DNA of 64,000 nt from Anaerolineales bacterium (GTDB lineage: Bacteria > Chloroflexota > Anaerolineae > Anaerolineales > UBA11858): assembly GCA_028278545.1 (NCBI GenBank), contig JANQED010000019.1:1-64000 (forward strand). The letters run 5' to 3'. Under the pieces are notes generated by a model. That model was given only the letters and a program-made list of their open reading frames with translations, ran no database searches and had not been told where the DNA came from. Made by a program: the position numbers and the translations under genes. Positions 2,780 to 17,835 of the stretch are shown one piece after another; position 1 is the first letter of the stretch, and each line of letters starts with the position of its first letter.

Positions 2780-3043
2780 TCATACGATCAAAACCCCTAT
2801 TTGCAGGGAATACGCCGTCGCTTTTGCAAAACGCTCAAATGAATGGTTAGCATACTCGCGACCCCAAGAAAGGGTCATTAAGCGAACGATCAATGACTGA
2901 TTAGTCTTCTTCTCTCGGGCTGCAGCCGACAAAAGACGCTTGCGAACATCGGCAGGAGGGTGTTTGCGCTCAAGCCAATTCTTCATCCCACGACGCAGCC
3001 TGAAATCAAACAGGTCTTTACCGGAATACTTATGTGAATTCAT
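2780..3043 (-). CDS. Small basic protein of unknown function, cotranscribed with the ECF sigma factor
   Basis: 87 residues from the ATG at 3043, which overlaps the end of the sigma-factor gene by 14 bases; a longer in-frame start exists at 3070. The protein is rich in Lys/Arg (RLRRGMKNWLERKHPP) and has no cysteine or histidine pair and no transmembrane segment. It is therefore not a zinc anti-sigma factor of the usual ZAS type, although it occupies the position where an anti-sigma gene is normally found. I do not recognise a family. Tight overlap with the sigma gene and the terminator directly downstream support it being a real translated gene of a two-gene operon. Confidence 0.55.
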   Translation of the reverse strand: MNSHKYSGKDLFDFRLRRGMKNWLERKHPPADVRKRLLSAAAREKKTNQSLIVRLMTLSWGREYANHSFERFAKATAYSLQIGVLIV

Positions 3044-3617
3044 ACTGCACTTCCCTGAGGCTGGTTTCATCGGTTGCTTCTAAGTGCGTCTTCAAAGCCT
3101 GACGACCGTAGTGCAAACGTGATTTCACAGTACCAACAGGGATCTCCAATATCTCTGAGATTTCTTGTAAAGTAAGGTCGTTAAAATAGTGTAAAACGAC
3201 AACCACGCGATGACGCAACGACAAATTGGCAACCGCCCGACAGATATCCTGCCACTCCTCATCTTTTTCGAGATGAAAAGCTGGGGAATTCCTCTTGCCG
3301 CTTGTCAGCCATTCAGCCATATCCTCTATGGGCTGGAGCAACCAACGCTTGCGTCGTTTGAGCCAGGTATAAGTAAGGTTGGTGGTTACACGATACAACC
3401 AGGGCTCAAGAGGGCGATCTGGATCAATGCGCATGGAAAAACGGTTCACCCGCAGGAAGACATCTTGCAGCAAATCCGCTGCAGCAAACTCATCCCCAAT
3501 GATCGCCAGCGCGGTTCGGTAAACTAAATGCTGGTAGCGATCATATAGCTCACCAAGGGCATCCAAATCCCCCTTCTGAAGTTGCAAAACCAATTCGCGG
3601 TCGCTGAACACTGGCAA
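3030..3617 (-). CDS. ECF-subfamily RNA polymerase sigma factor
   Basis: 195 residues with the two ECF domains. Region 2 spans about 10-90 (ELYDRYQHLVYRTALAI and DLLQDVFLRV, the -10-recognising and core-binding part), and region 4 about 125-180 (LSLRHRVVVVLHYFNDLTLQEISEIL with VGTVKSRLHYGRQAL, the -35-recognising helix-turn-helix). It would direct RNA polymerase to an alternative promoter set. The start shown is TTG at 3617; GTG at 3611 is equally plausible and has better spacing from AGGA. A sigma70-like promoter lies upstream. No anti-sigma factor with a zinc or transmembrane domain is next to it; the downstream partner is an unknown 87-residue protein. Confidence 0.9.
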   Translation of the reverse strand: MPVFSDRELVLQLQKGDLDALGELYDRYQHLVYRTALAIIGDEFAAADLLQDVFLRVNRFSMRIDPDRPLEPWLYRVTTNLTYTWLKRRKRWLLQPIEDMAEWLTSGKRNSPAFHLEKDEEWQDICRAVANLSLRHRVVVVLHYFNDLTLQEISEILEIPVGTVKSRLHYGRQALKTHLEATDETSLREVQYEFT

Positions 3618-3972
3618 ACTTCCTGATTAAAATCTTGCCTATACTACTCTTTCGATTAAATTAGGTTCAAAAATCATCCAAATTCCGAAATCAATCGAGT
3701 TATCTCTTCGAGTTCAAAAAAGCTATGACATAAGAAAGGGATAATGGGATTTGCCAATGGGGCATTCATCGTTTTATATGCCCTCAATGGGTTTAGTCGA
3801 AAAAAGCACTCACACAGTACAGCAATTATGCATTACAGATACACATCTGTCAAATATGAAGAAGCACAGATTGCTTAAAATCGCATGGGATCAAATTCTT
3901 GCCAGGAAAAAAACCAAGTCCGCGTTCATAGCAACATTTTAGCGAGGCACTATCCAGCTTTCAGTGTCCCTC
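3618..3972. other. Non-coding stretch between rsgA and the ECF sigma gene
   Basis: 355 bases. On the minus side it holds the candidate sigma-gene promoter. A 63-codon plus-strand frame (3751-3942) has no Shine-Dalgarno and no recognisable motif. A weak imperfect inverted repeat (TGGGGCAT, about 3766, with ATGCCCTCA, about 3779-3787) lies in the middle. I see no RNA gene. Confidence 0.4.
3641..3670 (-). promoter_or_regulatory. Candidate promoter of the ECF sigma gene
   Basis: On the minus strand TTGAAC (3670-3665), an 18-base spacer, then TAGTAT (3646-3641), about 24 bases before the start codon. The GAACC at the -35 position also resembles ECF-type -35 elements, so autoregulation is possible but unproven. 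Confidence 0.35.
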
Positions 3973-4878
3973 TCAATCATCGCCATCTTCGCCGTAACGC
4001 AGACGGATAAAGGACTCGTAGCGCTCTTCATGCACGCGCCCTTTTTCGACCGCAGCCTTGACAGCGCAGCCCGGCTCATGCAGGTGCATACAGTTGCTAA
4101 ATTTGCAGTCCGCGACAAGGCCTCGCAGCTCCGGGAAATAGCCATCGACCTCTTCAGGCTCGATATCCCAAAGCGCCATCGCTTTTAATCCCGGTGTATC
4201 AGCAACATAACCCCCATTTTCGAGAGGGAACATCTCGCGCACCACGGTTGTATGACGCCCCTTGCGCGTTGACTTGCTGATATCCCGGACAGCGAGGCCC
4301 AGTTCGGGCTGAACGGCGTTTAATAAACTGGATTTACCCGCTCCCGAGGGGCCCGCCAGCACAGAAACCTTCCCCCCCAGCCGTTTTCGCAATGCCGCTA
4401 CGCCGCGTCCTGTGGTCGCTGAGGTGAACAACAGGGAATAGCCAATTTTTTTATAGTGCCCATACCACCGGCGGGCATACCACCAGCCGATCAGATCGAC
4501 TTTATTAAAGACAATCAGCGAGGGAATTTCAGCCTGTTCAGCAACAATCAGCAGTCTATCCAGCATACGCAGGCGCGGTTCTGGATCCGTGCATGCGAAA
4601 ACAAAAACCGCCTGGTCTGGATTGGCGATCAGGATTTGCTGATATTCCCCCCTCGGCGTGGGCGCCATACGTGAGAACATGGAACACCGTTCTTCGATCT
4701 CCTCGATCATCCCCGTGCCATCTTCGAGAAGTGTGATTCGTACCCAATCTCCCACAGCGATGATATCCCCGGTGCGGCGCCCTTGTTTCAGCCGCCCCCT
4801 GAGACGGCAAATAACGGGACCACCATCCGTATCGACAGTATAAAAACCCGATTGCGAGCGGACAACTAATCCGCGCAT
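3973..4878 (-). CDS. rsgA: Small-ribosomal-subunit biogenesis GTPase RsgA (YjeQ)
   Basis: 301 residues, normal for the family. RsgA helps late 30S maturation and releases on GTP hydrolysis. An N-terminal OB-fold (about 1-70, CRLRGRLKQG) is followed by a circularly permuted GTPase: G4 NKVDL comes first (about 124), then the P-loop GPSGAGKSS (about 177), then G3 DTPGL (about 229). The C-terminal zinc site is C-x4-C-x-H-x3-EPGC (CKFSNCMHLHEPGC). The order G4-G1-G3 is diagnostic. It lies 38 bases after the stop of the penicillin-binding protein gene on the same strand and may be cotranscribed. Confidence 0.95.
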   Translation of the reverse strand: MRGLVVRSQSGFYTVDTDGGPVICRLRGRLKQGRRTGDIIAVGDWVRITLLEDGTGMIEEIEERCSMFSRMAPTPRGEYQQILIANPDQAVFVFACTDPEPRLRMLDRLLIVAEQAEIPSLIVFNKVDLIGWWYARRWYGHYKKIGYSLLFTSATTGRGVAALRKRLGGKVSVLAGPSGAGKSSLLNAVQPELGLAVRDISKSTRKGRHTTVVREMFPLENGGYVADTPGLKAMALWDIEPEEVDGYFPELRGLVADCKFSNCMHLHEPGCAVKAAVEKGRVHEERYESFIRLRYGEDGDD

Positions 4879-4916: not shown

Positions 4917-7199
4917 TTATGGTTCTGGTGCATTTTCCTCCTCTGGAGGCTCAGGTGTGGACAACACGCCCACAGAAGCCTCCCAGGGCAACAGATAAGT
5001 ACGCCGTCCTTCGAAGTATTGCTGAACGACTGCCCGGAAGATCGGCGCAGCGATATCGGAGCCTTCACCAGAATACTCGGCAATGACCACAATGGCAATA
5101 TCCGGTTTGTCGGCGCGATTTCGACGGGTATATCCCGCAAACCAGGCGTGAGAACTCTCTAGACCCGTTTCGGCAGTGCCCGTCTTGCCAGACATCGGGA
5201 TGACATTAGCGCTATAAGCGCCCAAAATGTGGTTTGCCGTCCCGCGCCGATTGTTGACCACATCTTTCATCGCTCCCTGGATCGCAGCTAGCGTTTCCGA
5301 GCTGATGGGCAGGGTGCCCTTGATGATTGGTTCAAGTTCAAGTACTGGCTCCTCACCTTGCACACCAATGCTCTCGATGATTTGCGGCTGATAGATCGTG
5401 CCGCCGTTGCCAATCGCGGCAATGAACTGGGCCACCTGTATCGGAGTCACCAGTGTGTCGCCCTGGCCAATGGCATTATTGATCGCCGCTACTTCATCTC
5501 CGGGGTCAGGGATATTGCCCTCTTCCTCCTCAACACCTTCGATCCCGGTCGGGCTGCCCAGCCCAAAAGCGCGCGCCATCCCTGAGATCGCATCGGTCAG
5601 CCCCTGGCGATACAAATCCAGGCCCATGTGCCAGAAGAAGGGGTTGCACGAACGCATCAATCCTTCCGGCAAGGTCAGCATACCGCTCGGCAGAGTTTTA
5701 CATTCACCCTGTGTAGCTTGCTCATCGCGGCAATGCTCCCAGGTCCAATCATATCTCGGCGCGATACTGGGAATCTCAGTAAAGGAGTACTGGCAATCAT
5801 ATGTGGACTCGACAGTATAAAGTCCGCTCTCCATAGCAGCCGCCATGGTGATGATCTTGAACACAGAGCCCAACGGATATTGCCCTTGCGTGGCGCGGTT
5901 GAGCAGCGGCTGGTTGCCGAAAGGCGAATAGATCTCTTCTAGTTGGTAACTGAAGTTGTAGTTTGTAGGTTCGAAGGCATTAGGATCAAACCACGGGGAT
6001 GAAGCCATCGCCAACACCCGCCCGGTATCGACCTCCATAACCACGATAGCCCCACCATATTTCATCAGGGTTAGCTGAGCGGCTTGCTGCAAATTGGTAT
6101 CCAAAGTAGTGAAAATGGACTGCGCTGGCTGGGCCTCGATATCGGCAAGCTGGGTGACGACCTTGCTGTCAGGCCCAAGCACATAAAGGGTGCCGCCGCG
6201 ATCACCTGTCAGATAGGATTCGCCCCATTTCTCGATGCCCTGACGCCCAACCATCTCATCTCGCCGGTAACCTTTGCGGAGGAATTCTTCTTCCTCTTCA
6301 GCCTGAATGCGCGAGACATAGCCTATGGCTTGCGGCGCGATCCCCATATCGAAGTAAAAGCGCGATTCGAATGGATACATGTATAAAAGGCCGTCATCGT
6401 ATCCATTTTCGACATCATAATAACGTTCAATCCGCTCGCGCAGCACCTCGCCCAGGGGCAGGTACCAATCCACGCCAATAGGGAAATCTTCATAGCTGGC
6501 CGCGATGGTATTTGGGTGTAGCCCCGTAATCCATTGCAGGTCTTCGAGGAAATCGGCTTCTTGCTCGGGGTCAATACGCCCGGGGACGATCCCAACTGAA
6601 ACTGCCTGAGCATAGGCAACAATCGGCTCGCCATTCCGATCATAGATATTGGCGCGTGAGGGCACATGCCGCTCCATCCACAGGGTATTGCCGCCGGCCA
6701 GCTCTGGCAAGATCAACTCGTCCGCCCACTGTACCCGCCAAGCATTATTCTCCAAACGCAGGTCCATCACCGTATCACGCTGGATTTCACCAATCAGCAC
6801 ACTATTCATCAAGACACGATAACTCACCTGAGCGCTCTCTGCATTACGAACCAAGGAAGATAAGATTTCATACTCCAAATCGGCCAGCGCCACTTCCCCA
6901 GCGACCGTGCGATAGCGGTCAGTGAACTCTTCGAGGGTGATGGCATCCTGGCTGACCTGCGTAAGCAGGGCATACATGGCGTCATAATCATCCGCTTTCC
7001 AGGCATCCAGATAAGCTATTACCGGCGATTCCACATCGGGGACAGGCGTTGTTTGGGGGCCAACGGTCGGGAGAACGGCCAACGTGGGGGAGGGAGTGTC
7101 AACAGCTTCCTGTGGCGCCTCGGTCGCCGCAGGTGTGGCCGCGCGGCACCCGGCAATGGTAAGAAACAACAGCCCAAAGATCAAAAGTCGAACTTTCAT
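4917..7199 (-). CDS. Class B penicillin-binding lipoprotein with MecA-type N-terminal domain (peptidoglycan transpeptidase)
   Basis: 760 residues from the ATG at 7199, chosen because it starts a lipoprotein signal (lipobox IAGC); an upstream in-frame start at 7250 would bury it. After a Pro/Thr linker come an NTF2-like MecA_N domain (about 55-150), a dimerisation region, and a transpeptidase domain with SxxK (SVFK), SxN (SCN) and KTG (KTGTAETG) motifs in order. It would cross-link peptidoglycan stem peptides outside the cytoplasmic membrane. A MecA-like N-domain is found in low-affinity PBPs, but resistance cannot be inferred. It lies downstream of maf with about 50 bases between. Anaerolineae often have reduced walls, so an intact transpeptidase is informative. 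Confidence 0.9.
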   Translation of the reverse strand: MKVRLLIFGLLFLTIAGCRAATPAATEAPQEAVDTPSPTLAVLPTVGPQTTPVPDVESPVIAYLDAWKADDYDAMYALLTQVSQDAITLEEFTDRYRTVAGEVALADLEYEILSSLVRNAESAQVSYRVLMNSVLIGEIQRDTVMDLRLENNAWRVQWADELILPELAGGNTLWMERHVPSRANIYDRNGEPIVAYAQAVSVGIVPGRIDPEQEADFLEDLQWITGLHPNTIAASYEDFPIGVDWYLPLGEVLRERIERYYDVENGYDDGLLYMYPFESRFYFDMGIAPQAIGYVSRIQAEEEEEFLRKGYRRDEMVGRQGIEKWGESYLTGDRGGTLYVLGPDSKVVTQLADIEAQPAQSIFTTLDTNLQQAAQLTLMKYGGAIVVMEVDTGRVLAMASSPWFDPNAFEPTNYNFSYQLEEIYSPFGNQPLLNRATQGQYPLGSVFKIITMAAAMESGLYTVESTYDCQYSFTEIPSIAPRYDWTWEHCRDEQATQGECKTLPSGMLTLPEGLMRSCNPFFWHMGLDLYRQGLTDAISGMARAFGLGSPTGIEGVEEEEGNIPDPGDEVAAINNAIGQGDTLVTPIQVAQFIAAIGNGGTIYQPQIIESIGVQGEEPVLELEPIIKGTLPISSETLAAIQGAMKDVVNNRRGTANHILGAYSANVIPMSGKTGTAETGLESSHAWFAGYTRRNRADKPDIAIVVIAEYSGEGSDIAAPIFRAVVQQYFEGRRTYLLPWEASVGVLSTPEPPEEENAPEP

Positions 7200-7249
7200 A
7201 GCGCTTCTCGTAAGGCAAAAATAGCTGTTAAGGCCAAAAGAGGTCCTCA

Positions 7250-7912
7250 CTATGGTAAAGCATTCAAGATTGAATTATAAACCGGACACTGATAACCCAG
7301 AGAGGTTTGACATGCTTCTGGTACGTTGATATCAGGCTCGAGGCCCACTTTGCTCAGGGTTCGTGTCAGGTGGCACAAGGGCAAACCGACCACATTGGCA
7401 TAACAGCCTTGCAGCTCATCGACGGGGTGAAAGCCAACATGTTGGATCGCGTAAGCTCCAGCTTTGTCCAGCGGATCACCAGTATCGATATACGCCCGCA
7501 CTTCTTCGTCAGTATAATTCCGCATAGGGACATCGGTAGCGCCAAGATCGGTCAGTAAAAGGGTATCCGGGCGGTGAACCGCTACACCGGTATAAACCTG
7601 ATGGGTACGCCCCCGCAGACGATGCAGCATATCGGCGGCATCTTCAGGGTCGCTGGGTTTACCTAAGATATCATCGCCATCGACTACGGTGGTATCCGCT
7701 GAGATGATCAGCGCGTCGCCCCCTGACCCTCTGGCAACCGTGCGGGCCTTGGATTCTGCCAAACGCAGCACATAATTCGGTGGCATTTCTCCCGGGAGAA
7801 CAGTCTCATCCACATCGGCAGGTACCACGCGGAAATCCCAGCCCAGGAGACCTAACAAAAACCTTCGCCGGGGCGAGTTGGAAGCAAGGATTAGATCAAG
7901 TTCAGAGGCCAT
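7250..7912 (-). CDS. maf: Maf-family nucleoside triphosphate pyrophosphatase
   Basis: 220 residues. Maf proteins hydrolyse non-canonical or modified NTPs such as dTTP/UTP or m7GTP to monophosphates. The N-terminal substrate loop ILASNSPRRRFLL (about 8-20), the catalytic region SADTTVV (about 71-77) with GKPSDPEDA, and the conserved DPLDKAGAYAIQ segment (about 145) are all present. The last roughly 25 residues (VPEACQTSLGY onward) extend beyond the usual end and are not recognised. No Shine-Dalgarno precedes the ATG. A TGATAGAAT extended -10 box lies about 40 bases upstream on the minus strand. Which NTP it prefers cannot be read from sequence. Confidence 0.93.
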   Translation of the reverse strand: MASELDLILASNSPRRRFLLGLLGWDFRVVPADVDETVLPGEMPPNYVLRLAESKARTVARGSGGDALIISADTTVVDGDDILGKPSDPEDAADMLHRLRGRTHQVYTGVAVHRPDTLLLTDLGATDVPMRNYTDEEVRAYIDTGDPLDKAGAYAIQHVGFHPVDELQGCYANVVGLPLCHLTRTLSKVGLEPDINVPEACQTSLGYQCPVYNSILNALP

Positions 7913-10309: not shown

Positions 10310-11287
10310 ATGGATATCGGCGAAGTTCTCTCCCAAGCCTGGAAGACCATCTGGAAATATAAAGTGCTCTGGATTTTCGGCATCTTAGCCAGTTGCGGTC
10401 AGGGCGGTAGCAGTGGCGGAGGTGGGGGGAATACCGGCTACCGTTTCTCACAAGGCGATCCCAATGTATCGCCCGAGGTAGGAAGTTTCTTCTACGGCAT
10501 TGAGCGCTTTTTCCAGCAGATCGAGGTCTGGCAAATCGTTGGTTTCATCGCCATCCTCATCTTGTTCTTCTTAGTAATCTGGTTCATTGTGCTTGCCTTG
10601 AGCACAATCGGGCGCCTCGGGTTGATCCAAGGTACTGCGAAAGCCGGTGCCGGTGCCGAACAGCTTACTTTCAAGGAACTCTTCGATGACGGAAAACCCT
10701 TTTTCTGGCGCATCTTGGGGGTGAATGTGCTGATTGGATTGGCAGTATTCGTTCTGATCCTGGTGATCGTGCTGCCGATGATGGGCATTGCCACGCTGAC
10801 CTTTGGGATTGGACTCATTTGCCTCATTCCGATAATATGCTTGCTGATTCCAGTGGGCTGGGGGATAAACATCATCCTGGAACTGACCAATATCGCCATC
10901 GTTTTACAAGATTTGGATATCTTCACTGGTATCCGACGCGGCTGGGAGGTCTTCAAGGAAAACCTGGGCTATGTCCTCGCAATGGCTTTGATCCTGGGAA
11001 TCGGTGGGACGATTGTTGGCTTCGTCTTCGCGTTGCCCTTGTTTGCCATCGTCTTCCCGGCAGCTTTTGGGGCGATTTTGGGTGGCGTAACGGATTCGGC
11101 ATTACCGCTGGGTGGCGGGCTTGCCGTCGCCGGTTTATGCTTCGTGGGGTATCTGCCGATCCTGGTCGTGCTGGGCGGCATCTTGCGCGCCTACATCCAA
11201 TCCGCCTGGACCCTCACCTATATGCAACTGACACAAACCCCTGGTGAGCCAGTTGAAGAGGCGGACGACAGTTCCCCAGAAGAGTAA
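10310..11287 (+). CDS. Polytopic membrane protein of unknown function
   Basis: 325 residues with a good Shine-Dalgarno (AGGAG). The N-terminus MDIGEVLSQAWKTIWKYKVLW resembles membrane proteins found beside stress or signalling genes in Chloroflexota. A Gly/Ser loop (SSGGGGGN, about 34-41) follows the first hydrophobic segment. Five further hydrophobic stretches are visible (about 75-100, 130-160, 165-195, 225-255, 265-300), and the C-terminus is acidic (EEADDSSPEE). No catalytic motif is recognisable. It sits 76 bases before the FHA/PP2C gene cluster on the same strand, but an extended -10 box directly before the FHA gene suggests separate transcription. Confidence 0.75.
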   Translation: MDIGEVLSQAWKTIWKYKVLWIFGILASCGQGGSSGGGGGNTGYRFSQGDPNVSPEVGSFFYGIERFFQQIEVWQIVGFIAILILFFLVIWFIVLALSTIGRLGLIQGTAKAGAGAEQLTFKELFDDGKPFFWRILGVNVLIGLAVFVLILVIVLPMMGIATLTFGIGLICLIPIICLLIPVGWGINIILELTNIAIVLQDLDIFTGIRRGWEVFKENLGYVLAMALILGIGGTIVGFVFALPLFAIVFPAAFGAILGGVTDSALPLGGGLAVAGLCFVGYLPILVVLGGILRAYIQSAWTLTYMQLTQTPGEPVEEADDSSPEE

Positions 11288-11348: not shown

Positions 11349-11357
11349 TGCTAGAAT
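11349..11357 (+). promoter_or_regulatory. Extended -10 promoter placing the transcript start at the FHA-gene ATG
   Basis: TGC-TAGAAT (TG at 11349-11350, hexamer 11352-11357) is followed by six bases and then the ATG at 11364. Transcription normally begins about 7 bases after the -10 hexamer, which would be the A of the start codon. No Shine-Dalgarno is present, consistent with a leaderless mRNA. Confidence 0.5.
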
Positions 11358-11363
11358 CTAACC

Positions 11364-13301
11364 ATGTTCAAAGCCATTAGCAGGATTATCCTGTTAAGCC
11401 TTTTGTTGTCTTTGGTTACCCCGCCAGTATGGGCGCAAGAGACAAACTGGGCAAAGCTCTCCCTCCCAAATACAGATTCATTCCCTTCTATCTCCACATA
11501 TTTGAATGTGTACGATGGCGAAGGCGATTTCGTGCACGATTTAGGCGTACAAAACGTCCGTATCATCGAAAACCAACGCTCAGTTCCCGTCAGCGAAATC
11601 ACTGAGCTGCGCCCCGGCGCCCAATTCGTGGTTGCTATCAACATGGGGCCCGCGTACGCTATCAAAGACAGTCAGGGCACAACCCGGTACGAGCACATAC
11701 AGCAGGCTATGAGCGACTGGATAGATTCCTACCCCGCGGAAGCCTCTGATGATCTCAGCATAATCACCAATGACGGCTTAGAAGGTCTGCACATCAATCG
11801 TCCAGTAGCCTGGCTTTCCAAATACAGGTCCTATGAGCCTGACATTGATGGCGCCACCCCGAGCCTGGATGTCTTGGCACGTGCGATCACCACCGCCGCT
11901 GATCCAGCTGCTCGCTCCGGGTTGGGAAGAGGCATACTGCTGATAACGCCTCTGCCCGGCCAGGATAGCCTGGCAGCCTTACCAAGCCTGGAATCGATGG
12001 CCAGAGGGGAAAACGTACGCGTCTATATTTGGATGGTCTCGTCCCGGGCATATTTCGACAGCGCCGGCGCTGACCTTTTGGCCGAGTTCGCAGCCCGAAC
12101 CGGCGGGCAGTTGTTTCGATACTCCGGGGATGAAGCCCTTCCCGCTGTTGACCCTTATGTGGATCAACTACGCCACACCTACCACCTGACCTACCATTCC
12201 CAGATTTCAGGTGGAGAGGTACATCAAATTGCGGCACACATAAACACCCCCTCCCTGGTGATCACCAGTGAGCCGGTTGAATTCGCCCTGAACGTCCAGC
12301 CGCCCAACCCGATATTCGTCTCCCCACCTCTGGATGTCATCCGCGTCGAACAGGCCAAGCCAGCGGACACATCCACCGAACTGGCTGTGTATACACCCAA
12401 CGAACAGCTCATTGAGATCCTGGTCGAGTTCCCCGACAGTTATTCTCGCCCCCTCAAGCGCACAACACTGTATGTTGACGGTGAGATCGCTGCGCAAAAC
12501 ACCTCTCCCCCCTTCGATCAGTTCACATGGTCGCTGGAGGATTTTGTCAGTGACGGCTCTCACCTGATCCAGGTTGAAGTCACAGACGATCTGGGGTTGA
12601 GCGGCGTCAGTATCGAGCATCAAGTCGATATTGCCATTCAACACGCGCCCTTTGATTTTCTGGGCCTGTTCAGGCAGAATGTTCCCGCCCTCGTCGGAAT
12701 CGGCGCAGCGGTCGTGATCAGCATTGCCTTGTTCACGCTCATCCTCGGGGGCAAGATTCAGCCAAGGACGACCGGTCGGCTAATCCGCAGGAGACGCCGC
12801 CGATACACCAAAGAAGCACAAGTTGACCGCGATCAATCAGTCACCCCCTCAATTCCACCGTCTTCACAGCCCCCTCGAGAACGTCTATCTCAATGGATGA
12901 ACCGTTTTGCCTGGCCCACCCGGCATGTAGAATCCCCTGCTGAAGAAGCCTACTTAGAATTCTTGCCCGCCAGGAACGGAAATGGACGGGAAGGTCACAT
13001 ACCTATCGCCCAACGCGAACTGACCTTCGGGAATGACCCTACGCTTGCTACAATAGAACTGGATGATCCTTCTTTGGACGCTCTCCACGCCCGTCTGCTC
13101 AAAGACGATAACGACGGGTACATCATCGCCGACGAGAGCTCCGTGGCCGGAACCTGGGTAAACTACACCCCGGTAACCCGTGAAGGAACCAGGATGAATC
13201 ACGGCGACATTATTCATATAGGACGGATCGGTTTTCGGTTCACTTATACTGACCCCCAAAAAATCCCCAAACCAAAAATAACCCCCCAGGAGACACTGTG
13301 A
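11364..13301 (+). CDS. Membrane protein with extracytoplasmic VWA-like domain and cytoplasmic FHA domain
   Basis: 645 residues. Residues 1-24 are a signal peptide (ends VWAQE). About 35-290 form a von Willebrand A-like domain in which the MIDAS DxSxS is replaced by INMGPA, so metal binding there is doubtful. A beta-rich region (about 310-425) follows, then a transmembrane helix (about 434-456) and a basic stop-transfer (RRRRRR). The C-terminus (about 545-635) is an FHA domain with LDDPSLDALHARL, GTWVNY and HGDIIHIG. FHA domains bind phosphothreonine, so the protein should link an outside event to Thr phosphorylation inside. It overlaps the downstream PP2C gene by 4 bases. No Hanks kinase is in the window. 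Confidence 0.85.
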   Translation: MFKAISRIILLSLLLSLVTPPVWAQETNWAKLSLPNTDSFPSISTYLNVYDGEGDFVHDLGVQNVRIIENQRSVPVSEITELRPGAQFVVAINMGPAYAIKDSQGTTRYEHIQQAMSDWIDSYPAEASDDLSIITNDGLEGLHINRPVAWLSKYRSYEPDIDGATPSLDVLARAITTAADPAARSGLGRGILLITPLPGQDSLAALPSLESMARGENVRVYIWMVSSRAYFDSAGADLLAEFAARTGGQLFRYSGDEALPAVDPYVDQLRHTYHLTYHSQISGGEVHQIAAHINTPSLVITSEPVEFALNVQPPNPIFVSPPLDVIRVEQAKPADTSTELAVYTPNEQLIEILVEFPDSYSRPLKRTTLYVDGEIAAQNTSPPFDQFTWSLEDFVSDGSHLIQVEVTDDLGLSGVSIEHQVDIAIQHAPFDFLGLFRQNVPALVGIGAAVVISIALFTLILGGKIQPRTTGRLIRRRRRRYTKEAQVDRDQSVTPSIPPSSQPPRERLSQWMNRFAWPTRHVESPAEEAYLEFLPARNGNGREGHIPIAQRELTFGNDPTLATIELDDPSLDALHARLLKDDNDGYIIADESSVAGTWVNYTPVTREGTRMNHGDIIHIGRIGFRFTYTDPQKIPKPKITPQETL

Positions 13302-14407
13302 TCCCCAAAGAGCGCGCCCATCTCAATGTCACAGCAATCACTCATGAGGGGATGAGTGGGAAAAATAACGAAGATCGCTATGGTGTTTCGGCGCACACAC
13401 TCAGCGAGCCTGAGTCAACCCCATCACTATTTGCGATTGTCGCGGATGGCATTGGCGGCCATCAGGCAGGAGAAATTGCTGCCGAAATTGCTGTCGAAAC
13501 CATCAGCCATGCTGTTGCAGCCAGCGATGCCAGCGACCCCCTTGCTGTTCTAAACGAAGCAATTGGCCAGGCCAACCTGGCAATCCACCAGCAATCCAAA
13601 TCCGATTTAGCGCAGCGCGGCATGGGCTCTACCTGTGTATGTGTCTGGGCCATCGGCGATCAATTGTATACGGCCTCAGTTGGAGATTCGCGGATTTACT
13701 TGGTACGCCAGGGCGCTATCCGACAAATCTCTACCGATCATACCTGGGTGCAGGAAGCCATCCAATATGGCATTATCACGCCAGACCAAGCGCGTGGACA
13801 CCCTCAATCTCATATCATCCGCCGCTATTTAGGCTCCGAAAAACCGGTCGAAGTGGATTTCCGTTTGCGTTTGGACCCTGAGGAGACCGACGAACAAGTG
13901 GTTGCCAACCAGGGCATGACTCTGCTGCCCGATGATCTGCTGATCCTCTGCAGCGATGGTCTCTCCGATCTGGTTGAAGATGAAGAGATTCAAACAATCC
14001 TAGAGGAAACCGGGCTCGAAGCCGGGTTGCAAAGACTGGTTGATCTTGCTAATCAACGCGGCGGGCACGATAACATCACCATTGTCGCTTTGCAAGTCCC
14101 TCACGAAAAGGACCAACCAGAGGAAAAGAGAAAAGGAACTCCCTCCAAAATGGGTTGGTTTTGGGGTCTTCTCGTAGCCATTTTGGCCTTGATCATCGTT
14201 GTGGCTGTTGGCTTTTTCGCCTGGGGAGATACTCGCCCTGATGTTACCCAAACCCCTACACCGCAGGCGACCGCTCCGATGATCACTGAAACCAGTCTTC
14301 CCCCCACCGAGATATTTACCGAATCACCAGCGGCCCCTCCACCAACCAAAGAACCCCCGCCCAAGTCTACATACACACCCTGGCCCACATCGACAGAAAC
14401 GCCATAG
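13298..14407 (+). CDS. PP2C-family serine/threonine phosphatase with C-terminal membrane anchor
   Basis: 369 residues from GTG at 13298, translationally coupled to the FHA gene (4-base overlap, Shine-Dalgarno GGAG). All PP2C motifs are present: NNEDRYG (about 22), VADGIGGH (about 49), GMGSTCV (about 108), VGDSRIYLV (about 128), LCSDGLSDLV (about 225) and GGHDNITIV (about 258). It should be an active Mn/Mg-dependent Ser/Thr phosphatase in the cytoplasm. A transmembrane helix at about 288-311 anchors it, and a Pro/Thr-rich tail lies outside. Pairing with an FHA protein is the usual context of Hanks-type kinase signalling, where this enzyme resets phosphothreonine marks. Confidence 0.93.
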   Translation: MIPKERAHLNVTAITHEGMSGKNNEDRYGVSAHTLSEPESTPSLFAIVADGIGGHQAGEIAAEIAVETISHAVAASDASDPLAVLNEAIGQANLAIHQQSKSDLAQRGMGSTCVCVWAIGDQLYTASVGDSRIYLVRQGAIRQISTDHTWVQEAIQYGIITPDQARGHPQSHIIRRYLGSEKPVEVDFRLRLDPEETDEQVVANQGMTLLPDDLLILCSDGLSDLVEDEEIQTILEETGLEAGLQRLVDLANQRGGHDNITIVALQVPHEKDQPEEKRKGTPSKMGWFWGLLVAILALIIVVAVGFFAWGDTRPDVTQTPTPQATAPMITETSLPPTEIFTESPAAPPPTKEPPPKSTYTPWPTSTETP

Positions 14408-14481
14408 CTTTGGTGGACCAAATTTCCCCGGCTAATTGCAATCCTCTTTCGACGATCCGCTGGAAATATTTTATCTTCCCC

Positions 14482-16716
14482 TCACGGTAAAAGCGCAAAA
14501 TAAACCTGGTTCCCGATAGCCAGGAAAACTTGATGATTGGGCCCCACTGTAAAAGCAGTTGCTTCACCCTCAGGCAAAAGTGTCTGGGAGCGGTATTGGC
14601 GCTGATAAACCAGTTGTAAGCTAAAATGATAAATGGAACGTTCATCCGCATCCAGCATGAAGATCGATGGATCAGGGGGAGGAACGAATTGGATTTCGCT
14701 GAAGACGGCATCACCCATTGTGGGGCTATCAGCATATCCATCACGAGGGTCTTGATACGTAGCGGGGTCGGCAAAATCATCACCCCCAAAGTAGCTCGTC
14801 ATCAGATGTCCATCCGCATAAAGCAAATACAACTTGCCATCACTCACAGTCAGGTCCAGCACACCTACCATAGAAGGGACCTGGTCTCCAAAAAAGAAAT
14901 CCGGTCGATCTTGGAATTCGCTCGCTCCAGCATACACCCAAACCGAACTCGTCAGCGGGTCAAGCACATATAGATTCCCCCCATCCAGTGCAAAAGCTTG
15001 CGGGGTACCCCAGTTAGAATCAGGCGGCGCCATAGAAAATGAGAGCTGTTCCGCGCCACCGGGGATGCACTGTACCAGGTTGCCATTGCCATCCATGCCG
15101 ATAGCCGTTGCGCCATGCGGATAACCGGGGGGGAGCGCGGCGATATCTACCAAAGGGCCTACAATCAAGGGCTGCGGCACCGGCCCACAGCGGAACTCGG
15201 AATCCAACTCAAATCTATCTCCGGTGAACACCGCCCGGTAGACCGCCCCTGCTGAACCATCAAGCATATAAAGATCATCGTCTATCGTAGCTACAAGGCG
15301 CGTGATCTCTGCTGTCGTTGGCAGCCCATCGACCATTGCTGGTCGGTAGCTGATGCGCACCACATTTTCCAGGGTATCCAACGCGATCGTAGCAGCACCA
15401 CGCAGACTTTGCGAATCTTCAGTCACCTTATAATTTTCTGCCAAATCCAGGTACTCTAAAGTCGCTTCCCAGGCCACGCGCTGCTCGTTGACATGCTCGA
15501 ATTGCTGGGCTTGCTGGGCCGCGCTTTGGGCTTCAAGGAGATAGCCCTCAAAATACCTGCCGCGGCCTTTTTGGAAATACACCGCCGCAGCCACTGCCAC
15601 GACGACCAGGGGAACAGCCACAGCAATAAACGCCATTGTCGACCCAGGCAGGGACAGCATATCCTCATCGGGCAACATACGCTCGATCAACGTGCTGACT
15701 GCCTGGGCAGCCTGGCGGAGCGTGGACATAATTGCGCGTCCAAATGCGACCATCCCCTGCACCACTGTGGATGACCATACCTGACGCAAACTGCGTGTCC
15801 GAGGCTCGCTTCTCCTGTCTTGGCTCACTTCAGGAGATGGCTGCTCCACAGGTGAATCCGAAGGCCCTCTGGCCGGGGATACTTCCACGCCGGATATATC
15901 GGCAACGCTGGAGATTGGTGCTGTTGGGGGCGCGGGTTCCGGTATTGACTCCTCCTGTGGAGGCTCATCTCTTCGGGACTGGGCGTGATCAGTTGCTGCC
16001 TCGCGTTGCTCTTGAGGAAGTTTGGGGGCCACAAGCCGGAGATTACCTTTACCCTTCTTTGTCAGCATCAGCGCGGCTTCCAAATCGCCACCTGCACGCC
16101 GAATCAAGCGGCGATACAGATCTCTCAGGGAAAGCCCATGCATATTCCGCAACGTGGTAGTGTTCCAGGTCGTAGGCGGGCTTGAAGAGACCAAAAGCAC
16201 ATCGCCAGGGTCGAGCTCAGCCTGATGGAAACGCAGCGTTGTCGCACGGCTGAGGCCCAAACCGCGCCCGGTGCCGGTGGGATCATAGAATTGCTGAACA
16301 CCGGCAGTTTTTATCAAATAAGCATGCGATGAGCCGCTTTGCAGAAGGTAAAGACGGCTAAACCGCACCACACCAAGAGCCAACACCCCAACAGCCTGTC
16401 GCCCCCGGTTGAGGGAATTCAAATTACGCTTCAGCAGCAACTCATTCAGCGTCTCCGCCACCGCCCGCATGGCCGCCGTCGACGAGCCTGACGCCATATA
16501 ATATTCATCCGCCATTTGCGCCAGGAGCCTGTCCAGTTCCTTGGGGGATAAGGGCAAATTGCCTTCTAAAGATAAATAACTGAACAGATAATCCGAAGAG
16601 CGCCCTCGCGCTGCTCGGCGAGGCGGGTTGGCAGCATGCAAGCCCGGCAATTTCGGCCGATCTTTGCCAGCTTGACGCACCAGGGGAAGCAAAACTAAAT
16701 CAAGGGATGTTGCCAT
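14482..16716 (-). CDS. Degenerate PP2C-like domain joined through a membrane helix to a beta-propeller (putative pseudophosphatase sensor)
   Basis: 744 residues. About 1-235 follow the PP2C fold order but with the metal ligands lost: where active enzymes have VGDSRxYL it reads QSGSSHAYLI (about 126-135), and where they have LxxSDGL it reads LLVSSSPPTTW (about 174-184). A DGxGG motif is absent. A long acidic/Pro linker (about 240-350) leads to a transmembrane helix (about 375-397). About 420-744 are repeated beta-strand units with GNLYVLDPLTSSVWVYAG-type blades, likely an NHL/YVTN-like propeller outside the cell. It is convergent with the active PP2C gene. Function inferred only as a catalytically dead sensor or scaffold. 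Confidence 0.7.
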   Translation of the reverse strand: MATSLDLVLLPLVRQAGKDRPKLPGLHAANPPRRAARGRSSDYLFSYLSLEGNLPLSPKELDRLLAQMADEYYMASGSSTAAMRAVAETLNELLLKRNLNSLNRGRQAVGVLALGVVRFSRLYLLQSGSSHAYLIKTAGVQQFYDPTGTGRGLGLSRATTLRFHQAELDPGDVLLVSSSPPTTWNTTTLRNMHGLSLRDLYRRLIRRAGGDLEAALMLTKKGKGNLRLVAPKLPQEQREAATDHAQSRRDEPPQEESIPEPAPPTAPISSVADISGVEVSPARGPSDSPVEQPSPEVSQDRRSEPRTRSLRQVWSSTVVQGMVAFGRAIMSTLRQAAQAVSTLIERMLPDEDMLSLPGSTMAFIAVAVPLVVVAVAAAVYFQKGRGRYFEGYLLEAQSAAQQAQQFEHVNEQRVAWEATLEYLDLAENYKVTEDSQSLRGAATIALDTLENVVRISYRPAMVDGLPTTAEITRLVATIDDDLYMLDGSAGAVYRAVFTGDRFELDSEFRCGPVPQPLIVGPLVDIAALPPGYPHGATAIGMDGNGNLVQCIPGGAEQLSFSMAPPDSNWGTPQAFALDGGNLYVLDPLTSSVWVYAGASEFQDRPDFFFGDQVPSMVGVLDLTVSDGKLYLLYADGHLMTSYFGGDDFADPATYQDPRDGYADSPTMGDAVFSEIQFVPPPDPSIFMLDADERSIYHFSLQLVYQRQYRSQTLLPEGEATAFTVGPNHQVFLAIGNQVYFALLP

Positions 16717-16753
16717 GGACGAGATACCCTAAACGCCGATCATGATCACTACC

Positions 16754-16761
16754 ATTATACT
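16754..16761. promoter_or_regulatory. Overlapping divergent -10 boxes between the pseudophosphatase and acyltransferase genes
   Basis: The 8 bases ATTATACT read TATACT on the plus strand (16756-16761, six bases before the ATG at 16768) and TATAAT on the minus strand (16759-16754, 37 bases before the ATG at 16716). Two polymerases could not use them together, so the two genes may be mutually exclusive or balanced. Confidence 0.5.
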
Positions 16762-16767
16762 GGTAAA

Positions 16768-17835
16768 ATGGCTGGGACTACAATTCATCCTGATCCATCA
16801 ACCAAAAATACTATGAAATTAGAGATTTTACGTACAATAACCGAGTTCGAGAAGATGGCCGACGAATGGAACCATCTCCTTGAGAACAGCGCCAACAATG
16901 TGCCGTTTTTGCGCCATGAGTACCTGACCACCTGGTGGGGTTCTTTGGGCGGTGGGGAATGGCAAGGTGGGGAATTATATCTCGTAACCGCCAGAAACGA
17001 TGCCGATGAGCTCATTGGGATCGCGCCCTTATTCCTCACGAAAAACCTGGAGGGCAAAACTGCCCTGATGCTGGTCGGGAGCATCGAGATTTCCGATTAT
17101 TTAGACTTGATCGTCCTCGAAGGTGAGCTGCCCGCTTTTATAGATGCCCTATTGGAACACCTGACCGGGCCTGACGCGCCTCCCTGGGATGTTTTGGACT
17201 GGTACAACATCCTAGAGGATTCGCCCACCCTCCCCACCTTAGAGACTGGTGCCCATAAATTGGGCTTAAACTACTCCTTGGAGCAACTACAGCCCGCGCC
17301 GCGCATTGCCCTCGCTGGTGATTGGGACGAATACCTGATGGGTATCCAGGGCAAGCAACGCCGCGAGATCCGCCGCAAGGTGCGCCGCGCCGAAGGGTTT
17401 TACACACCCGTGAGTTGGTATATCGTCGATGACGAAGCGGTGCTCGACGACGAAATCGACGCCTTCCTTGAACTGATGGCCCACGACCCCGAGAAGGAGG
17501 CCTTCCTCACCGAGGTGATGCGTTCCCAAATGCGCGCCTCAGTGCATACCGCTTTCCGCGAAGGCTGGCTGCAACTGGCGGTGATCACCGTTGGCGATGA
17601 AAGGGCCGCCGCGTACCTCAACTTCGATTATGACAACCAGGTCTGGGTCTACAACTCAGGGATCAACTTCAAATTTCAGGAACTCTCCCCGGGCTGGGTT
17701 TTGCTGGCATACCTGATCCAATGGGCTATCGACCACGGCCGCGAGCACTTCGATATGATGCGCGGCGATGAGGTCTACAAGTATCGCTTTGGGGGCGTAG
17801 ACCGCTTCGTGATGCGCGCCCAGGTCACGCGCTAG
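16768..17835 (+). CDS. GNAT-fold acyltransferase of the BioF2/CelD type
   Basis: 355 residues from the ATG at 16768, supported by a TATACT box ending 6 bases upstream; the conserved part begins at MKLEILRTI (ATG at 16813), so a 340-residue product is possible. The protein has the doubled GNAT layout of the Acetyltransf_6/CelD family: EFEKMADEWNHLL (about 24-36) near the start, GKQRREIRRKVRRAEG (about 193-208) in the middle, and GWVLLAYLIQWAIDHGREHFDMMRGDEVYKYRFG near the end (split over about 311-344). Related enzymes act on polysaccharide or lipid amines, or resemble FemX. The substrate is unknown. Confidence 0.8.
   Translation: MAGTTIHPDPSTKNTMKLEILRTITEFEKMADEWNHLLENSANNVPFLRHEYLTTWWGSLGGGEWQGGELYLVTARNDADELIGIAPLFLTKNLEGKTALMLVGSIEISDYLDLIVLEGELPAFIDALLEHLTGPDAPPWDVLDWYNILEDSPTLPTLETGAHKLGLNYSLEQLQPAPRIALAGDWDEYLMGIQGKQRREIRRKVRRAEGFYTPVSWYIVDDEAVLDDEIDAFLELMAHDPEKEAFLTEVMRSQMRASVHTAFREGWLQLAVITVGDERAAAYLNFDYDNQVWVYNSGINFKFQELSPGWVLLAYLIQWAIDHGREHFDMMRGDEVYKYRFGGVDRFVMRAQVTR

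Follow-up and report, generated by a model that had tools for sequence, protein, structure and literature searches.

The locus described here raises the question of whether three neighbouring genes act as one transmembrane phosphothreonine system that works without a kinase, as had been proposed in a first-pass annotation of the sequence. The window, that is, the whole stretch of 64,000 nucleotides analysed from an Anaerolineales contig (JANQED010000019.1), carries at this place the following features:

10310..11287, + strand: 325-residue multi-pass membrane protein, with weak DUF7847/DUF7544 matches
11364..13301, + strand: 645-residue VWA-Ig-TM-FHA protein, from predicted structure and profiles
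11637..11657, + strand: codons 92-98 (INMGPAY) of this gene, at the position of the MIDAS motif DxSxS
13029..13169, + strand: codons 556-602 of this gene, the FHA phosphate site (G556-N557, D572-A573-L574-H575, A595-G-T)
13298..14407, + strand: 369-residue PP2C, Stp1/IreP-like, with intact catalytic residues, a TM segment at about 284-309 and a Pro/Thr-rich tail
14482..16716, - strand: 744-residue receptor-like predicted pseudophosphatase, with a PP2C-fold domain, a TM segment and an NHL propeller
16768..17835, + strand: 355-residue FemAB/GNAT-like acyltransferase, divergent from the 744-residue gene

The FHA and PP2C genes share 4 bp, so that the two are probably translationally coupled. The 744-residue gene lies convergent (tail-to-tail) to the PP2C gene, and no shared transcript is therefore expected for these two. 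In comparisons with the loci of relatives, which came mostly from Anaerolineales and Anaerolineae records, most of the Anaerolineales loci had the gene of the 325-residue membrane protein next to the FHA-PP2C pair on its upstream side. Near the pair, at window positions 4917-7912, lie genes for a penicillin-binding protein and Maf, which are syntenic in many relatives, an arrangement that recalls the PBP/FHA/PP2C neighbourhood of Actinobacteria. The predicted folds, the ligand losses, the conservation and the gene neighbourhoods reported below are results of the tools used.

The 744-residue protein and its metal site

The window copy of the 744-residue protein gave no significant domain match in Pfam or NCBIfam. 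A profile of 39 members of its family matched the PP2C enzymes tPphA (E 3.4e-8) and PppA (1.8e-4), and hhalign assigned the N-terminal domain to the PP2C family at 97.7-98.5%. The AlphaFold2 model (mean pLDDT 85; above 90 across most of both domains and about 90 in the propeller) comprises a PP2C-fold domain (residues 1-230), a low-confidence linker (237-312), a TM segment (about 360-382 or 361-379), a helical stalk and a propeller (450-744). The PP2C structures that Foldseek matched to the N-terminal domain (TMt) were 2pk0 (0.69), PppA (6jkv, 0.63), tPphA (2j86, 0.63) and SpoIIE (5mqh, 0.53), and a weak Pfam SpoIIE match was found in 5 of the 39 members. Foldseek and structural comparison identified the C-terminal domain as a six-bladed NHL propeller, with Brat, Pizza6 and the PknD sensor domain among its matches (Z 22-25). 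The first-pass description of a PP2C-like domain joined to a beta-propeller is thus supported by predicted structure and, for the PP2C fold, also by profiles. The propeller may lie outside the cell and the PP2C fold inside, with a weak charge bias around the TM segment (22 of 41 sequences favour N-in and 11 the reverse; the window copy, with 2 against 3, is slightly against).

The PP2C-like domain had also been described as dead, and most of the metal ligands were still absent when 39 members of the family were aligned. The bridging Asp, D50 in the PP2C of the window, is replaced by L50 and its position is acidic in none of the 39 members. The GDSR Asp (D130) corresponds to S129 in the window copy, with Pro in 20 members and an acidic residue in 5, and the SDG Asp (D220) corresponds to S179, acidic in 3. 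D258, the last of the ligands, corresponds to D211, a position that is acidic in 20 of the 39, and an Asp occurs near residue 178, one position ahead of the SDG site, in 17. The NED ligand region has no clear counterpart; the profile places P21/K22 there, in low-confidence alignment columns. In addition, the flap segment that follows the GDSR strand is missing. The nearly invariant R39 was considered as the PP2C phosphate-binding Arg and dropped; the profile alignment puts the NED region at residues 17-22. In PHLPP2 and TAB1, which have the PP2C fold, lost metal ligands go together with lost activity (PMC12002173). Judged from these alignments, the PP2C-like domain of the 744-residue proteins is a predicted family-wide pseudophosphatase in which most catalytic metal ligands are absent.

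Several known proteins share part of this design. PknD of Mycobacterium tuberculosis, whose propeller acts as a sensor (PMC3601408), is built in the same way, with a single TM segment between a signalling-enzyme fold and a six-bladed NHL-type propeller (Z 22). Its inner domain is, however, a Ser/Thr kinase, whereas the 744-residue protein has there a PP2C fold that lacks the catalytic metal site. TAB1 and PHLPP1/2 also present a PP2C fold with a degraded active site (PMC12002173); they are, however, eukaryotic, retain the M2 metal site in part and carry other partner domains, while the 744-residue family has lost the central Asp in all 39 members. The PP2C-fold domain of Bacillus SpoIIE is linked to the membrane, as in the 744-residue protein, but has no propeller. 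SpoIIE itself is catalytically active and has several TM segments. The pseudophosphatase papers found in a search for bacterial PP2C pseudophosphatases concern eukaryotic proteins, and a 2025 survey of bacterial PP2Cs makes no mention of inactive members or of NHL propellers. Bacterial pseudophosphatases thus seem little described.

The VWA-FHA protein and the adjoining phosphatase

The 645-residue protein begins with a hydrophobic leader, followed by a VWA domain (about 83-270), an Ig-like region (matched by Big_7 in 12 of the 33 family members), a TM segment (about 440-461) and a cytoplasmic FHA-fold domain (about 545-628). The VWA fold was confirmed (Z 17-19 over residues 83-274) and its MIDAS is lost, with N93-M-G-P-A in place of DxSxS and T195-P(-L) in place of SDG, which bears out the earlier reading of a VWA-like domain with a broken metal site (INMGPA).

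The FHA domain is recognised by Pfam (E 6.6e-11, 42.9 bits) and by its Foldseek matches to FHA structures. Five residues are conserved most strongly in FHA domains (Gly, Arg, Ser, His and Asn), and in MupFHA binding is severely disrupted when the Arg or the Ser is mutated (PMC4238996); in the FHA domain of DgcB, R61 and R76 coordinate the phosphate (PMC6733907). The window protein retains the Gly (G556) and the His (H575), and has N557, D572 and A595 at the positions of the Arg, the Ser and the Asn; G-N, D-A-L-H and A-G-T thus stand for the canonical G-R, S-R-x-H and N-G-T. The role of phosphothreonine reader assigned to this domain is not supported, given the replacement of three of the five residues, including both that are critical in MupFHA. 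The loss of the Arg contacts extends beyond the window copy. In a set of 79 FHA proteins, from the window and from relatives' loci, none keeps the SRxH Arg and 72 lack the GR Arg; when 11 further proteins of the order are added, these two residues are kept in 0 of 90 and 10 of 90 proteins of the order clade, numbers that are non-independent because some genomes are counted twice among the 90. Outside the order both Arg residues are kept in 18 of 18 proteins. Given that about 10 of the 90 retain the GR Arg, and that two of the 79 (L176 and L189) retain the Ser as well, some copies of the order clade may still bind phosphate.

The 369-residue PP2C matches the Pfam family with an E of 3.5e-18 and the NCBIfam Stp1/IreP model NF033484 with an E of 7.6e-65 and 218.7 bits, just below the cut-off of 230. 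By its profile scores it is a close Stp1/IreP relative, formally under the equivalog cut-off. Its ligand positions (ED, DG, GD, SDG, DN) are invariant across 27 aligned sequences, and the enzyme is presumably active. It had been annotated as an intact, membrane-anchored PP2C and placed among genes that each have an outside part. Intactness and the TM segment both stand, but the outside part is merely a Pro/Thr-rich tail past that segment, and 9 of the 17 aligned Anaerolineales PP2Cs end ahead of it, so that the anchor is a variable feature of these enzymes.

Kinases, neighbours and distribution

A six-frame profile search found no Ser/Thr kinase in the 64 kb window, confirming the earlier statement to that effect. 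Yet "without a kinase" does not describe the cell, since the genome contains 14 kinase-domain matches elsewhere (13 above the curated cut-off), one of which adjoins another PP2C gene on contig C141, and kinases are encoded in related operons. At loci outside the order that encode a VWA-FHA protein, the same kind of search revealed a Ser/Thr kinase nearby in 13 of 17, often with one kinase upstream and another between the FHA and PP2C genes. None was found near the FHA-PP2C pair in the 80 order-clade loci, searched up to 4 kb on each side. The kinase/VWA-FHA/kinase/PP2C operons of the same class (L127, L154, L159-L162) encode homologous VWA-TM-FHA and PP2C proteins in the same gene order as the window, but differ in having kinases, both FHA Arg contacts and, in several cases, the MIDAS, all of which the order of the window has lost. 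The absence of kinases, of the FHA Arg contacts and of the MIDAS coincides and marks one clade of the tree; the losses therefore count as a single event and are unsuited to a correlation test. Our literature search on Chloroflexota kinase/FHA/PP2C operons returned nothing on the FHA-PP2C locus. Some kinase/VWA-FHA operons (L161, positions 2795-4138; L154, L160, L162, L163) start with an N-terminally extended MinD/ParA-like ATPase (AAA_31), a possible hint at a role in secretion or in the positioning of pili.

In Anaerolineales the 744-residue gene is most constantly accompanied by the FemAB-like gene, which stands divergent to it in 14 of 41 loci, and a LytR-CpsA-Psr (LCP) gene lies downstream of or near relatives of the 744-residue gene in 6 loci from 4 families. 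FemAB-like and LCP proteins have cell-envelope functions. After the LCP gene that follows 744-residue relatives, a family of about 242 residues with no Pfam match occurs (L067:247-1020, L068:6072-6800, L074:5707-6432). In 11 Anaerolineales loci, a family of about 340 residues (cluster C3, e.g. L047:10797-11879), for which Pfam gave no match, is encoded co-directionally with the 744-residue gene, downstream of or overlapping it; the C3 protein is likely a co-transcribed partner of these relatives and is absent beside the window copy. The gene preceding the FHA-PP2C pair in Anaerolineales is guaA, and in three other families of the class (L080, L083, L084) the 744-residue gene is directly downstream of guaA, with gaps of -10, 6 and 6 bp.

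The distribution of the genes argues against the view that all three constitute one system. The 744-residue family was detected in 174 of 298 genomes of the class at E <= 0.001 and the FHA protein in 67 of 298 at the different threshold of E <= 1e-6, meaning that at least 107 genomes have the former without a detected relative of the latter. When the phylum was searched with the single protein, 26 of 201 genomes had a member of the 744-residue family, and 6 of these 26 lie outside the class. In all 18 other genomes of the order that have the FHA gene, the 744-residue gene is located elsewhere, and one genome (G253) has it without an FHA gene or a close PP2C. From these 18 genomes the three-gene cluster had appeared unique to the window genome; this was rejected, as 10 relatives' loci adjoin likewise. 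The 744-residue gene is convergent to the PP2C gene in these 10 of 68 informative loci, in addition to the window, and all of them fall in one clade of 17 (SH-aLRT 98 in a quick tree). Two members of the clade (L166 and L171) have other genes in place of the 744-residue gene, by sequence the end of an isoleucyl-tRNA synthetase gene and elongation factor G. The clade keeps its housekeeping synteny too (guaA, xpt, maf), which makes adjacency weak evidence for a shared function, and nothing in the analysis specifically links the dead PP2C of the 744-residue protein to the active PP2C.

Two proposed envelope modules and the competing explanations

The explanation that we consider best, and to which we give an even chance of being correct, is that two modules lie side by side, a phosphate-independent adaptor and a pseudophosphatase receptor, both at the envelope. 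The FHA-PP2C pair would be the Anaerolineales form of the wider kinase/VWA-FHA/kinase/PP2C envelope-signalling operon, whose kinase-linked arrangement we infer to be the older one. In the order, this module would have been left with no kinase beside it, a VWA domain without its metal site, an FHA domain without its phosphate contacts and a PP2C that is still intact. With the VWA metal site and the FHA phosphate contacts lost, the VWA-FHA protein is most likely a phosphate-independent transmembrane adaptor; its outer VWA/Ig part would meet envelope partners, its inner FHA fold would hold a cytoplasmic partner, much as the FHA domains of EssC hold the EssB pseudokinase (PMC10765036), and the PP2C may dephosphorylate proteins phosphorylated by unlinked kinases of the genome. 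In the second module, the 744-residue receptor would sense with its PknD-like, probably external propeller, and its inner dead PP2C fold would bind a protein partner without catalysis. The topology of the 744-residue protein, the adaptor role, the partners and the ligand are what we infer from these features.

In the model first proposed, the FHA domain reads phosphothreonine, the PP2C erases it and the dead PP2C serves as a ligand-controlled reader or decoy that balances the active phosphatase, with kinases acting in trans. The intact PP2C, the 14 kinase-domain matches elsewhere and the adjacency of the genes, whose order is kept in one clade over 33-74% identity, speak for this model. We nevertheless find it improbable, given the replaced contacts of the window FHA (R to N, S to D, N to A), an adjacency confined to a single clade with conserved housekeeping synteny, the convergent orientation and the many genomes that have the 744-residue gene without a detected FHA relative (in G253 also without a close PP2C). 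That the two modules adjoin by chance, through general synteny around guaA and with no common function, is a possibility we rate as rather unlikely, although it agrees with the conserved neighbours guaA, xpt, maf, PBP and rsgA and with the separate location of the 744-residue gene in all 18 order genomes sampled that have the FHA gene. It fits less well with an adjacency retained in 10 loci of one deep clade and with both modules being membrane proteins made of kinase/phosphatase signalling folds. This reading is compatible with the adaptor and the receptor, each module being taken alone.

A further alternative concerns the N-terminal domain of the 744-residue protein, which might still be a phosphatase of a cryptic or atypical kind, or might bind metal through non-canonical ligands. 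PHLPP2, although inactive, binds one zinc (PMC12002173), and D211 or the Asp near residue 178 could hold a single metal, so that a stray metal is possible in view of their frequency in the family. Against this stand a central bridging position that is never acidic in the 39 sequences, a GDSR Asp position acidic in 5 of them and the missing flap, and we regard this alternative as very improbable.

A bolder version of the two-module explanation can be drawn from type VIIb secretion, where the EssB pseudokinase is bound by FHA domains of EssC that have no phosphate-binding residues (PMC10765036). As here, an FHA domain without phosphate residues is present, and in that system it pairs with the dead enzyme-fold domain of a single-TM protein; EssB is, however, a pseudokinase and EssC an ATPase, while in the window the dead enzyme is a predicted pseudophosphatase and a pairing between the FHA and 744-residue proteins would be hypothetical. 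Rather speculatively, the class might use dead PP2C-TM-propeller receptors as signal-transducing partners, and the kinase/phosphatase/FHA operon might, in Anaerolineales, have lost its phosphate reading and been turned into an envelope complex that works independently of phosphate. This complex might then, as an equally tentative analogy, be the PP2C counterpart of the FHA-pseudokinase pairing of type VII secretion.

The predicted family-wide bacterial pseudophosphatase receptor is new, with a clear architecture and with members in more than half of the genomes sampled from the class. Also new is the order-wide loss of phosphate reading predicted for the FHA domain beside a phosphatase that is still intact, which cautions against taking an FHA match beside a PP2C as a sign of phosphothreonine reading. 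The contrast between the order and its kinase-linked relatives offers a natural case in which to study how the use of a phosphate-signalling operon changes, and the locus looks like a case of phosphate-signalling parts reused for cell-surface building or sensing.
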